From assembly GCF_003781945.1 (NCBI RefSeq), contig NZ_RJJW01000003.1, forward strand, positions 406,366 to 470,365: a stretch of DNA of 64,000 bases, given 5' to 3'. The stretch comes from Halorubrum sp. CSM-61 (GTDB lineage Archaea > Halobacteriota > Halobacteria > Halobacteriales > Haloferacaceae). Each line of letters starts with the position of its first letter. Within the stretch, counting starts at the first letter, position 1. Made by a program: the position numbers and the translations under genes. This document shows positions 2,484 to 53,000 of this stretch, piece after piece. The notes below the pieces were generated by a model. That model ran no database searches, was not told the DNA's origin, and saw only the letters and a list, made by a program, of their open reading frames with translations.

Positions 2484-2927
2484 CGATTACGGGAGTAGGT
2501 ATTGCAGATCGGTGGTGGCGAATCAGTATTTAAAGGATCCGTGAGCGGCGGCGACGATCGCTTATAAAGAACAACGCGGTGGCGCGCCCCAGTGAGCGGC
2601 CGCCATCGGCGGCCGCGAACCGACGGTGCGAGGGAGTCGCTGGCGGCGACAGCCGCCAGCGACGAGGCTGGGGAGGCGGGAGGCTGTGCGGTCGGGTGGG
2701 ACTCAAAGGGGCAGCCGCTGTGGGCGGCGCAGGCGACGTAAGCACCGCAACGAGGGAGCGAAGCGACTGAGTGAGGAGCGCAACGAGCGTGCGCCGCCCA
2801 CAGCGGCTGGGGCTTTGGAGGTCGTCACCGCAGTGTCGCCGATCGCTTAAAAACAGCCGCCAGCAACACCGCTCGATCACGTATAAACAACCACTCTACA
2901 AGCGTGCTATACCCACTCCCGCAATTG
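2484..2927 (+). repeat. Dispersed element, copy A: MITE-like unit with imperfect terminal inverted repeats
   Basis: The left end at 2484-2502 and the reverse complement of the right end at 2909-2927 match at 16 of 19 positions (core CGGGAGTxGGTAT). Just inside the left end is a box GTATTGCAGATCGG shared with copies D and E. TATA-like boxes follow at about 2527-2534 (TATTTAAA) and 2561-2567 (TTATAAA), then the structured core, then two more at about 2847-2853 and 2882-2888. No transposase gene and no clear target duplication are visible. The unit fills the gap between the helicase and the GNAT gene. Confidence 0.7.
2576..2830 (+). ncRNA. Candidate structured RNA, copy A of five
   Basis: Three hairpins are separated by linkers conserved in all five copies. 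Hairpin 1 has an inner stem GCGGCCGCC/GGCGGCCGC. Hairpin 2 is a perfect 12-bp stem (2636-2647 with 2652-2663). Hairpin 3 is a perfect 19-bp stem (2713-2731 with 2790-2808). Conserved linkers are GAGGCTGGGGAGGCGGGAGG, GGTGGGACTCAAAGGGGCAG and CTGGGGCTTTGGAGG. The stem sequences differ from the other copies but the pairing is kept. It is not recognisable as RNase P RNA, SRP RNA, tRNA or rRNA. The boundaries are approximate and no transcript has been shown; a TTATAAA box lies just upstream. Confidence 0.65.
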
Positions 2928-21197: not shown

Positions 21198-21470
21198 GCG
21201 GTGGCGCGTGCCTCCGAGCGCCCCCAGGGCGCGAGGAGCACGCGCGAGGGATGCCGCGAGCGACGTGGGCGACCGGAGGGAGCCCCGAGCGAGCGGCGAG
21301 GCTGGGGAGGCGGGAGGTGCTGTGCGGTACGGGGTGGGACTCAAAGGGGCAGTCGGTGAGGCGGGCGCAGGCGACGCAAGCACTGGAAGGAGCGAGCAAC
21401 GCGAGCGACTGAAGCGCACAGCGAGCGTGCGCCCGCCTCACGGCTGGGGCTTTGGAGGTGTTCTCCGTCG
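21198..21470 (+). ncRNA. Candidate structured RNA, copy B of five
   Basis: Same conserved boxes as copy A. Hairpin 1 has the inner stem GCGCCC/GGGCGC inside GCGTGCCTCC...GGAGCACGC. Hairpin 2 is larger than in other copies, closed by GCCGC/GCGGC. Hairpin 3 has a perfect 14-bp stem (21356-21369 with 21428-21441). The linkers GAGGCTGGGGAGGCGGGAGG and GGGTGGGACTCAAAGGGGC are intact. No terminal inverted repeats are recognisable, so this may be a decayed or differently mobilised copy. It lies between the Lrp gene and gatE, with a TTATTAAC box upstream. Confidence 0.65.
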
Positions 21471-21530
21471 ATCTGTCGCCAGTCACTTATAAGCGAGCGG
21501 CTGGGGATTTGGAGGTGTTCTCCGTCGATC
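21441..21530 (+). repeat. Duplicated 3' box of copy B
   Basis: A 33-base stretch at 21441-21473 recurs at 21498-21530 with a single change (32 of 33 identical). The two are separated by a TTATAAGC box. Copy C shows a shortened trace of the same duplication after its own ATTATAAGC (about 23909-23930), so B and C share a sub-lineage. Confidence 0.8.
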
Positions 21531-23626: not shown

Positions 23627-23889
23627 GCGGTGGCGCGTGCCTCCGAGTGGCCGATAGGCCACAAGGAGCACGCGCGAGGGAGTCAGTCGCCGAGCGAAGC
23701 GATGGCGACTGACGAGGTTGGGGAGGTGTGAGGCTACGGTGCTGGGCGGTGCGGGGTGGGACTCAAAGGGGCAGCCGGGAGGGCGGCGCAGACGACGTAA
23801 GCACTGCAGGAAGCGAGCAACGCGAGCGACCGAAGCGCGCAACGAGTGTGCGCCGCCCTCCCGGCTGGGGCTTTGGAGGTGTTCACCGT
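23627..23889 (+). ncRNA. Candidate structured RNA, copy C of five
   Basis: Clearest hairpin 1 of the family: outer GCGCGTGCCTCC (23633-23644) with GGAGCACGCGC (23665-23675), one bulged C, and inner GTGGCC/GGCCAC (23647-23652 with 23657-23662). Hairpin 2 is a 10-bp stem (23682-23691 with 23704-23713). Hairpin 3 is a perfect 18-bp stem (23773-23790 with 23849-23866). The linker boxes match the other copies. No flanking inverted repeats. Between it and the tRNA (about 23930-24017) I see nothing else. Confidence 0.65.
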
Positions 23890-24017: not shown

Positions 24018-24070
24018 GTGCTGTCGTGTAGACAACACCGTGCATCGTGGGGGTGTGCCCCGTGCGATGC
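24018..24070 (-). other. Two hairpins directly 3' of the tRNA-Leu gene
   Basis: GTGCTGTC/GACAACAC (24018-24025 with 24031-24038, one G-T pair) and GCATCG/CGATGC (24042-24047 with 24065-24070) with further inner GC pairing. The second overlaps the last three bases of the mature tRNA. They could act in 3' trailer processing or termination, or be chance in GC-rich DNA. Confidence 0.35.
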
Positions 24071-24152
24071 GTGGGACCGGATTTGAACCGGCGGACCTCT
24101 ACAGGACAGCGCCCTCAACGCTGCGCCGTTGGCCTGGCTTGGCTACCCACGC
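24068..24152 (-). tRNA. tRNA-Leu (anticodon GAG)
   Basis: On the minus strand the gene starts GCGTGGG and ends CCCACGC plus discriminator A, a 7-bp acceptor stem. The anticodon stem CAGCG/CGCTG encloses loop TTGAGGG, giving anticodon GAG (reads CTC/CTT). A long variable arm (TGTCCTGTAGAGGTC region) and the T-arm CCGGTTCAAATCCGG confirm a class II leucine tRNA of 85 bases. CCA is not encoded and no intron is present. A promoter-like TTTTAATTA lies about 40 bases upstream (near 24190-24200). Confidence 0.95.
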
Positions 24153-43496: not shown

Positions 43497-43575
43497 GGTG
43501 ACCCGGTGCTGTTTGGATCTACTTCTTCAGACGGACTCTTTCCGAAACGATTGGTCGCTGAAGGTGCTTCTTGAG

Positions 43576-44030
43576 CGATAGCGGGAGTGAGTATTGCAGA
43601 TCGGTGGGGATAGTTCGGTATTTAAACGATCGTAAGTGATGGGCGACGATCGCTTATAAATGGCGTGCGGCGGCGCGCCCCGGTGAGCGGCCGCCATCGG
43701 CGGCCGCGAACCGACGGTGCGAGGGAGTCGGCCGGCGCTTATAAGCGCCGGCCGACGAGGCTGGGGAGGCGTGAGGCTGCGGTGCTGTGCGGGGCGGGTG
43801 GGACTCAAAGGGGCAGCCGCTGCGGGCGCCGCAGGCGATGTAAGCACCGCAACGAGGGAGCGGCAGCGACCGAGTGAGGCGCGCAGCGAGCGTGCGGCGC
43901 CCGCAGCGGCTGGGGCTTTGGAAGTGTTCACCGCAGCGCCGTCGACGACTTATAAACAGCCGACAGCGACACCACTCGATCACGTATAAACAACCACTCC
44001 ACCATATCGATATACCAACTCCCGTAATCG
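43576..44030 (+). repeat. Dispersed element, copy D: MITE-like unit with terminal inverted repeats
   Basis: The left end at 43576-43594 and the reverse complement of the right end at 44012-44030 match at 15 of 19 positions. The same internal layout as copy A is present: the GTATTGCAGATCGG box, TATTTAAA (about 43619-43626), CTTATAAA (about 43653-43660), structured core, then two downstream TTATAAACAGCC- and GTATAAACAACC-type boxes. It fills the convergent gap between the rhomboid and METTL5-type genes. Confidence 0.7.
43667..43933 (+). ncRNA. Candidate structured RNA, copy D of five
   Basis: Hairpin 1 inner stem GCGGCCGCC/GGCGGCCGC is shared with copy A. Hairpin 2 is a perfect 30-base palindrome at 43727-43756 whose loop spells TTATAA. 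Hairpin 3 is a perfect 19-bp stem (43815-43833 with 43893-43911) differing in sequence from copy A at several paired positions. The linkers are as in the other copies. Confidence 0.65.
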
Positions 44031-52573: not shown

Positions 52574-53000
52574 CGGGAGTGGGTATTGCAGATCGGTGGT
52601 GGGTGAGGAGTATTTAAATTATCGTAAGCGACAGCGACGATCGTTTATAAGTGCGGTGGCGCGTGCCTCCGAGGCCGCTTCGCGGCCGAGGAGCACGCGC
52701 GAGGGATGCGGTGAGCGCTCGCAGAGCGCGAACCGCGAGGTTGGGGAGGCGTGAGGCGCGGTGGTGTGTGGTTGGGTGGGACTCAAAGGGGCAGTCGCTC
52801 TCGGCGAACCCCAGCGACGCAAGGACCGCAGGGAGCGGAGCGACCGAGGACCGCAGCGAGCTGTGGGAGCCGAGAGCGACTGGGGCTTTGAAGACCTTCA
52901 CCACAGTAGCGTCGATAAGTTATAAACAGCCGCCAGCAACACCACTCGATCGCTTATAAACAACCGCTCCACCGTTTTACTATACCCACTCCCGCTATCG
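52574..53000 (+). repeat. Dispersed element, copy E: MITE-like unit with terminal inverted repeats
   Basis: The left end CGGGAGTGGGTAT (52574-52586) is complementary to ATACCCACTCCCG within the right end (52982-53000). The inner box GTATTGCAGATCGG, TATTTAAA (about 52611-52618), TTTATAAG (about 52644-52651), the core, and two downstream TTATAAACA boxes (about 52920 and 52955) repeat the layout of copies A and D. It fills the convergent gap between the small hypothetical gene and the GH15 gene. Confidence 0.7.
52653..52902 (+). ncRNA. Candidate structured RNA, copy E of five
   Basis: Hairpin 1 has outer GCGTGCCTC/GAGGAGCACGC-type pairing and inner GCCGC/GCGGC. Hairpin 2 spans 52708-52736 (GCGGT/ACCGC with inner GCGCTC/GAGCGC). 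Hairpin 3 is a shorter perfect 13-bp stem (52793-52805 with 52869-52881), with a sequence unlike any other copy. The linker boxes are conserved, with small changes in the last one (CTTTGAAG instead of CTTTGGAG). Confidence 0.62.

Follow-up and report, generated by a model that had tools for sequence, protein, structure and literature searches.

REP sequences and BIMEs, as associated with RAYT transposases, exist as many intergenic copies of hairpins, sometimes as inverted pairs, and RAYTs in turn belong to the Y1 family. The element considered here is similar in that it too consists of many intergenic hairpin copies, some as inverted pairs. It differs, however, in being five to ten times longer, in carrying several hairpins upon a G-rich base, and in not being tracked by Y1 transposases. 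The closest described kind are the PATEs (palindrome-associated transposable elements) of Haloquadratum and Halorubrum, which are described as IS605-related and heterogeneous, with near-terminal palindromes (PMC3119063, PMC10544981). As so described, PATEs and the present element have in common being non-coding, dispersed, transposase-free, palindrome-bearing, haloarchaeal, and of similar size (PMC3119063, PMC10544981). The difference, in a comparison with these descriptions, is that the Y1 transposase does not track the present element and, as this tie is missing, the element is not filed here as a PATE.

Five copies, all on the + strand, are found in the 64,000-nucleotide stretch of Halorubrum sp. 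CSM-61 DNA that was analyzed (the window). Their cores lie where the initial annotation had placed them, i.e., at 2576..2832 (copy 1), 21198..21473 (copy 2), 23627..23889 (copy 3), 43667..43933 (copy 4), and 52653..52905 (copy 5), and each holds an exact GGTGGGACTCAAAGGGGC box (5 matches versus 0.03 expected in shuffles). A full copy reads, in order, hairpin 1 (hp1), CGAGGGA, hp2, GAGGYTGGGGAGG, a G/T-rich linker, GGGTGGGACTSAAAGGGG, hp3, and GGGGCTTTSGAGGTGTTC; some copies from other genera consist of box and hp3 alone. Copy 3 occupies the interval between gatE and tRNA-Leu, the latter (24068-24152) adjoining the copy and being the sole tRNA gene that ARAGORN finds in the window. There hp1 (GCGCGTGC...GCACGCGC) is at 23633..23675 and hp2 at 23682..23713, both by the arm-pairing test. 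The marker box GGTGGGACTCAAAGGGGC follows at 23755..23772, with its CAAAG serving as the 5' side of a covarying closing helix, and then hp3 (23772..23867), which has a 19-bp stem and, beyond it, GA/GA mismatches among 2-bp steps up to a triloop. Lastly GGGGCTTTG (23867..23875) supplies a GGG that faces the GGG of the box, plus the 3' side of the closing helix. Copy 1 shows the same succession of hp1, hp2, G-rich linker, box, hp3 (2712-2809), and closing box, and in copies 2, 4, and 5 hp3 is at 21350-21446, 43814-43912, and 52792-52882, respectively. It had been claimed that hp3 is a perfect stem in every copy, of 19, 14, 18, 19, and 13 bp. That holds for copies 1, 3, 4, and 5, with outer stems of 20, 19, 20, and 14 bp, but is slightly too strong overall, as in copy 2, by eye, a one-base bulge separates 14 inner pairs from about five outer ones, of which one is a wobble.

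Read from the closing helix inwards, hp3 consists of GGG/GGG, an outer stem, a rod of 2-bp steps parted by GA/GA, and a triloop tip. The suggestion that CTCAAAG could pair with CTTTGGAG to close hp3 is right in its core: the closing helix is CAAAG/CTTTG in Halorubrum versus GAAAG/CTTTC in other genera, with GGAAG/CTTCC, AAAAG/CTTTT, and GCAAG/CTTGC as rarer forms, i.e., its two sides covary. Amid such change the GA/GA mismatches are kept in 61 and 59 of 86 hp3 sequences, GNA tips make up 54 of 72 hp3 triloops (the triloop often lying within GCGAAGC), and the GGG/GGG tracts are near-invariant (84/86). Upstream of hp3, GGG-N(1-3)-GGG is present in 76 of 86, with T, GT, C, GC, A, GGT, or G as spacers, a count in which loci from L203 on were chosen by a pattern containing part of this motif. 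At the level of sequence, that is, four G-tracts are conserved with loop bases free, as a G-quadruplex calls for, the folding itself being a prediction.

The window's copies had been taken for a five-copy family. The family is in fact far larger, with 105 exact matches to the box GTGGGACTCAAAGGGG in the source genome (G000), 169 with one mismatch or fewer, and none to the reversed pattern. Upon scanning 293 genomes of the order, exact boxes were found in all 19 of the same genus, 3 to 105 in each, and one genome outside the genus had a single exact match that is not an element. The initial annotation had proposed running a covariance model on haloarchaeal genomes. One for hp3, built from 55 sequences, matched 195 of the 293 genomes and 65 of the order's 87 genera at E <= 1e-5, with 98 genomes giving no match, at most 12 candidates having been scored per genome, and it matched 0 of 85 genomes outside of the order (100 genomes of the phylum were searched). 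Thirty chosen genomes from other genera have 1 to 77 copies each. Genome G004 has 3 exact boxes yet 36 of its 36 scored candidates pass the hp3 model, and exact-box numbers therefore understate copy number in some species. A wider box form, with one genome taken per species, gave at least 120 matches; among the 80 of these listed, 78 have haloarchaeal names, one is 'uncultured archaeon A07HN63', and one, L263, is a Prevotella MAG that fails the hp3 model. Neither L263 nor L049, both single box matches, is an element. The CTCAAAG form of the box occurs on a Halorubrum salinarum plasmid and the wider form on plasmids of Halobaculum, Haloarcula, and Halorussus; viral contigs held no exact match to either box form and two copies used as blastn queries had no match among phages.

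The window yields no match above the gathering threshold in Rfam 15, in agreement with the earlier statement that the copies could not be matched to RNase P RNA, SRP RNA, or any class familiar to its author. A relaxed search with copy 3 brought up two miRNA-precursor families and no others, both scoring well under threshold (28.8 of 85; 18.6 of 168), and none of four box forms turned up in the text of 5.39 million open papers. What can be regarded as firm is an element present across the order in high copy number, whose fold is conserved on one strand and which Rfam does not match. It represents a conserved structure that is very widespread among haloarchaea, with matches in 65 of 87 genera and copy numbers that reach dozens or more.

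The fold is seen in how hp3 varies. In an alignment made by sequence alone (A1), which took only copies with an hp3 of 108-128 nt, 23 of 33 pairs have changed on both sides and 98.6% of cells are paired. A second alignment (A2) consists of 88 matches, 86 of them distinct, which a search of 93 loci at E <= 1e-6 gave at 74; two-sided change is seen here in 28 of 33 pairs, and 97.8% of cells are paired, with none of 500 shuffles as high and slid partners paired at 32-42%; being aligned to the model, A2 leans towards structure. Swapping arms among Halorubrum copies gives a similar picture. For hp3 (112 distinct of 120) the mean number of consecutive pairs is 14.75 with own arms versus 7.07 with swapped arms (best of 500 swaps, 7.74), for hp2 (53 distinct of 94) 7.09 versus 2.93 (best swap, 4.00), and for hp1 (89 distinct of 94) 5.62 versus 4.96 (best swap, 5.18). 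The claim that hp1 and hp2 behave as does hp3 is clear for hp2 but weak for hp1, as the outer arms of hp1 are mostly common to copies.

Change with retention of pairing is seen as well within single orthologous sites. Between gatE and tRNA-Leu, the 13-bp stem takes 11 different forms among 15 well-paired orthologues of hp3, and in 286 of 1365 position-by-position comparisons between them both sides differ with both paired (19 stems were extracted, of which 4 were excluded for pairing at under 16 of 18 positions). At a pdxS site in another genus, the stem differs among all five genomes that have the element (two of the stems agree at ten positions), and in every one all 13 outer positions pair, with a single G.T among them. 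Wobbles on the + strand, in addition, are G.U in 84 cases versus A.C in 8 with the outermost model pair omitted, and 55 versus 8 without the most variable pair, an excess which indicates that it is the + strand that is selected. Selection on single-strand shape is strongly supported. Of the original reading as selection on RNA shape, the shape is borne out by covariation, same-site changes, and strand asymmetry; the RNA identity is the weaker part, and several tests considered below lean against a discrete RNA gene. The family serves in this as a warning that covariation by itself is no proof of RNA.

Palindromes may be perfected also without selection on shape, that is, by template switching during replication that corrects imperfect ones. 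By eye, the interior of hp3 is turned around in L122, L130, and L143, as is hp2 in L126 and L143, meaning that arms do exchange, and the near-perfect outer stems are a further point in favor. Such correction would erase, however, the GA/GA, the GGG/GGG, and the GNA tips which instead persist amid covarying pairs, nor does it account for G.U being tenfold over A.C. Template switching, very improbable as the general explanation, is largely refuted for the inner rod, though outer stems may be renewed in this manner.

A structured non-coding RNA is a different matter. Transcripts from many copies might act in trans or serve as the copying form, and with such RNAs covariation and strand asymmetry are equally expected, with the complex, non-canonical loops pointing in the same direction. 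SRP and RNase P RNAs of the same order are comparable in that they too are long, covarying folds, but those match just once or twice in a genome, use G.U two to three times as much, and carry GNRA tetraloops. Specifically, G.U makes up 3.9% and 3.6% of standard pairs in the element (30 and 60 other-genus copies), versus 11.8% in SRP RNA (27 sequences) and 8.9% in RNase P RNA (23). Tips of the element are triloops in 27 of 31 (18 GNA) and 53 of 61 cases (35 GNA), whereas triloops are 12 of 122 loops in SRP RNA (0 GNA) and 31 of 208 in RNase P RNA (8 GNA), with tetraloops there often GNRA (24/61 and 46/96, respectively). Three SRP loci cut by contig ends were dropped from these statistics, as were, of 30 RNase P RNAs fetched, 5 unlisted and 2 cut. 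One paper describes GNA loops and cites work on extraordinarily stable DNA minihairpins (PMC6479982). As there presented, the d(GCGAAGC) minihairpins and their GNA loops are like the tips of hp3, which are mostly GNA triloops, often within GCGAAGC; the minihairpins, though, are short oligonucleotides, whereas hp3 tips cap a long genomic rod. Low G.U together with GNA triloops is DNA-like, in a statistical sense that falls short of proof and with SRP and RNase P RNA the only comparators.

Not all such comparisons favor DNA. By the same pipeline, G.U:A.C ratios are lower for the element (37:10 and 49:15) than for SRP RNA (285:32) or RNase P RNA (131:16), and other mismatches are commoner (5-6% versus 1.5-2.4%), both of which count against the DNA reading. 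So too does the stronger folding z seen with RNA parameters: minimum-free-energy z-scores for the + and - strands are -5.0 and -4.8 with RNA parameters versus -3.1 and -3.8 with DNA parameters. The value of about -5 fits with RNA, but as a test of strand or molecule folding energy was set aside as uninformative, the strands being alike and RNA parameters stronger than DNA.

Promoters and gene context also bear on the RNA possibility. A TTATAA-like motif lies ahead of 24 of 31 Halorubrum copies in G000, 21 of 29 in G281, and 1 of 31 in G033, mostly 16-18 nt before the GGTGGCGCG of hp1, and its presence ahead of most copies in two of these three Halorubrum genomes is another point against the DNA reading. 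This motif may be either a promoter or a repeat of the flank. The distance from TATA to transcription start is about 27 nt, and a start at that distance would fall within hp1. In other genera a TATA-like motif is ahead of just 1 of 76 copies, versus 10 of 2826 background windows, i.e., without enrichment. With genes as called by a simple script, and loci that may overlap one another, 16 of 193 copies overlap a predicted ORF, and in the source genome 16 of 35 copies are between convergent genes. Within tandem gaps 39 copies are on the strand of the genes and 41 opposite, which is not the fixed orientation of a cis-regulatory RNA, nor a preference such as a discrete RNA gene might show. Among 70 proteins of neighboring genes that were scanned (87 listed), a given Pfam family recurs twice at most. 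Cis-regulation and a common neighbor function were accordingly rejected. In sum of its two sides, with the loss of hp3 at 7 of 30 orthologous sites weighing further against, a structured RNA is possible but doubtful.

Orthologous sites indicate both age and turnover. At the gatE site of copy 3, 30 congeners were read of 52 with a match: 27 hold the element, all in the same orientation, and 3 are without (L128, by eye, has no element). Of the 27 holders, hp3 is intact in 19, lost or cut in 7, and at a contig end in 1. At the pdxS site the element is in 5 of 13 genomes; of the remaining 8, three with the same next gene have a short, element-free gap and five have different neighbors. Sites of the window copies were also compared in five relatives, with some anchors absent. 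Those of copies 2 and 3 are occupied in 5 of 5, though G311 (L121) is without hp3 at the copy 3 site. The copy 1 site is occupied in G311, with hp3 cut; that of copy 4 is without an element in G311 and G295 and has the unit inverted in G305; and that of copy 5 holds an element in G311 and is empty in G295. None of these comparisons yielded a clean empty site or an insertion event whose target site is clean. That the gatE (27/30) and pdxS (5/13) sites are old and have held their orientation also fits a kept function. The element might be a DNA structure that serves its host, such as a chromosome-organizing or recombination site, one kept in many places by selection and spread by recombination. 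Order-wide presence, use of both strands, old orthologous sites, and a quadruplex-prone box would all be consistent with this. Copy number that ranges from 0 in those 98 genomes (up to 12 candidates scored in each) to 169 boxes is not, nor are sites lost or damaged in congeners, nor the absence of strand order along the G281 chromosome, where the strands of 64 copies succeed each other at random (runs test, z = 0.64). Such service to the host we consider unlikely. A replichore-orientation bias was similarly looked for, using full copy lists along with that runs test, and none is seen.

Mobility in some form is suggested by the source genome. There, inverted repeats flank 17 of the 35 copies examined (both ends, with four or fewer mismatches), giving units of 421-561 bp. 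Copies 1, 4, and 5 of the window are among those with such ends, the left and right repeats being at 2490..2505 (+) and 2906..2921 (-) for copy 1, 43582..43597 (+) and 44009..44024 (-) for copy 4, and 52574..52589 (+) and 52979..52994 (-) for copy 5. These inverted-repeat copies resemble each other at up to 95.9% over 440 bp, and homology stops near the repeats. In the source lineage such copies look like MITEs, and it is in this that they are like haloarchaeal MITEs and SMRs, as described in PMC3119063; the family elsewhere, however, is mostly without inverted repeats, and its conserved part is the inner fold rather than the ends. Were the family an ordinary MITE, moved by a DDE transposase acting on terminal inverted repeats, then the other 18 of 35 copies, including copies 2 and 3, would not lack a matching pair, nor would so few of the loci examined outside of G000 show even one repeat. 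Target-site duplication is not evident by eye among the inverted-repeat copies of the source genome, no parent transposon has been identified, and the core structure would go unexplained. As an account of the whole family the MITE is already refuted by the repeat-less copies, leaving it barely probable at all. A Y1 transposase was considered too, and rejected, as its presence does not track that of the element: the two are independent (129/66/57/41, p 0.20, with up to 12 element candidates scored per genome), and PF01797 is absent from 66 of 195 element genomes, including the copy-rich G026, G104, G008, and G033.

The reading preferred here, which we hold to have about an even chance of being correct, is that of a dispersed, non-coding mobile element on which selection acts in the form of folded single-stranded DNA, its base perhaps being a G-quadruplex. 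The mobile-like aspect follows from the many unrelated sites, the closely similar copies, presence, absence, or inversion at orthologous sites, the lack of strand preference relative to tandem genes, and the lack of a common neighbor family. Counting against this reading are the lack of a clean target site, the old sites of unchanged orientation, Y1 transposases not tracking the element, and the random strand order in G281. Transposons that move as single strands are expected to display replication-strand bias, and that random order gives no sign of any.

How an element of this sort might proceed can be put as follows. The + strand would become single during replication, repair, or excision, upon which hp1 and hp2 could form. 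The cytoplasm of haloarchaea is high in potassium, and there the four G-tracts may build a quadruplex, with hp3 standing as a rod upon this base. Some enzyme would then bind the folded shape of the + strand and move the element, and such reading of shape would account for stems that stay paired as their sequence varies freely. Hairpin modules would in addition be shuffled and inverted as copies recombine or undergo gene conversion with one another. Going further, all of this might constitute selfish DNA of a new class, an element spread across the order which multiplies via one folded single strand, with a quadruplex base and a GA-stepped rod, by means of a non-Y1 enzyme, and whose modules swap and invert within a fixed outline, a proposal that is tentative and has a fair amount of doubt attached. 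Either way, the family is a natural test case for selection on shape in single-stranded DNA as opposed to RNA, and a ready setting in which to study G-quadruplexes in cells rich in potassium.

Certain smaller observations concern how copies are put together. Pairs of hp3 on opposite strands, head to head with box facing box, are present at 8 of 74 loci with matches (L173, L180, L190, L193, L197, L216, L220, L229). Extra hairpin cassettes, e.g., GAGGGACCGAAGGTCCCTC and GCCGGCGGCGAAGCCGCCGGC, are found inside elements at several positions (L005, L008, L015, L041, L048, L051, L055, L121, L141, and others), and these small cassettes look as if they have been moved between copies. L003, by eye, is a 5' half like that of window copy 1 joined to an hp3 like that of L021, a chimera that suggests module exchange between copies of one genome. 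Copy 2 is of the form flanked by TTATAA and has a repeated tail (about 21498-21530). One or more tandem repeats of the 3' end box with its TTATAA, about 57 bp apart, follow many Halorubrum copies, in G281 and in G000 as well as at 21454-21530 of the window. A second dispersed motif, TTCAGACA...TGTCTGAA...TGGTCGNTGAAG, lies at about 43520-43565 of the window, by copy 4, as well as in L015, and it is present at the copy 4 site in G311, G295, and G305, whether or not the element is there.
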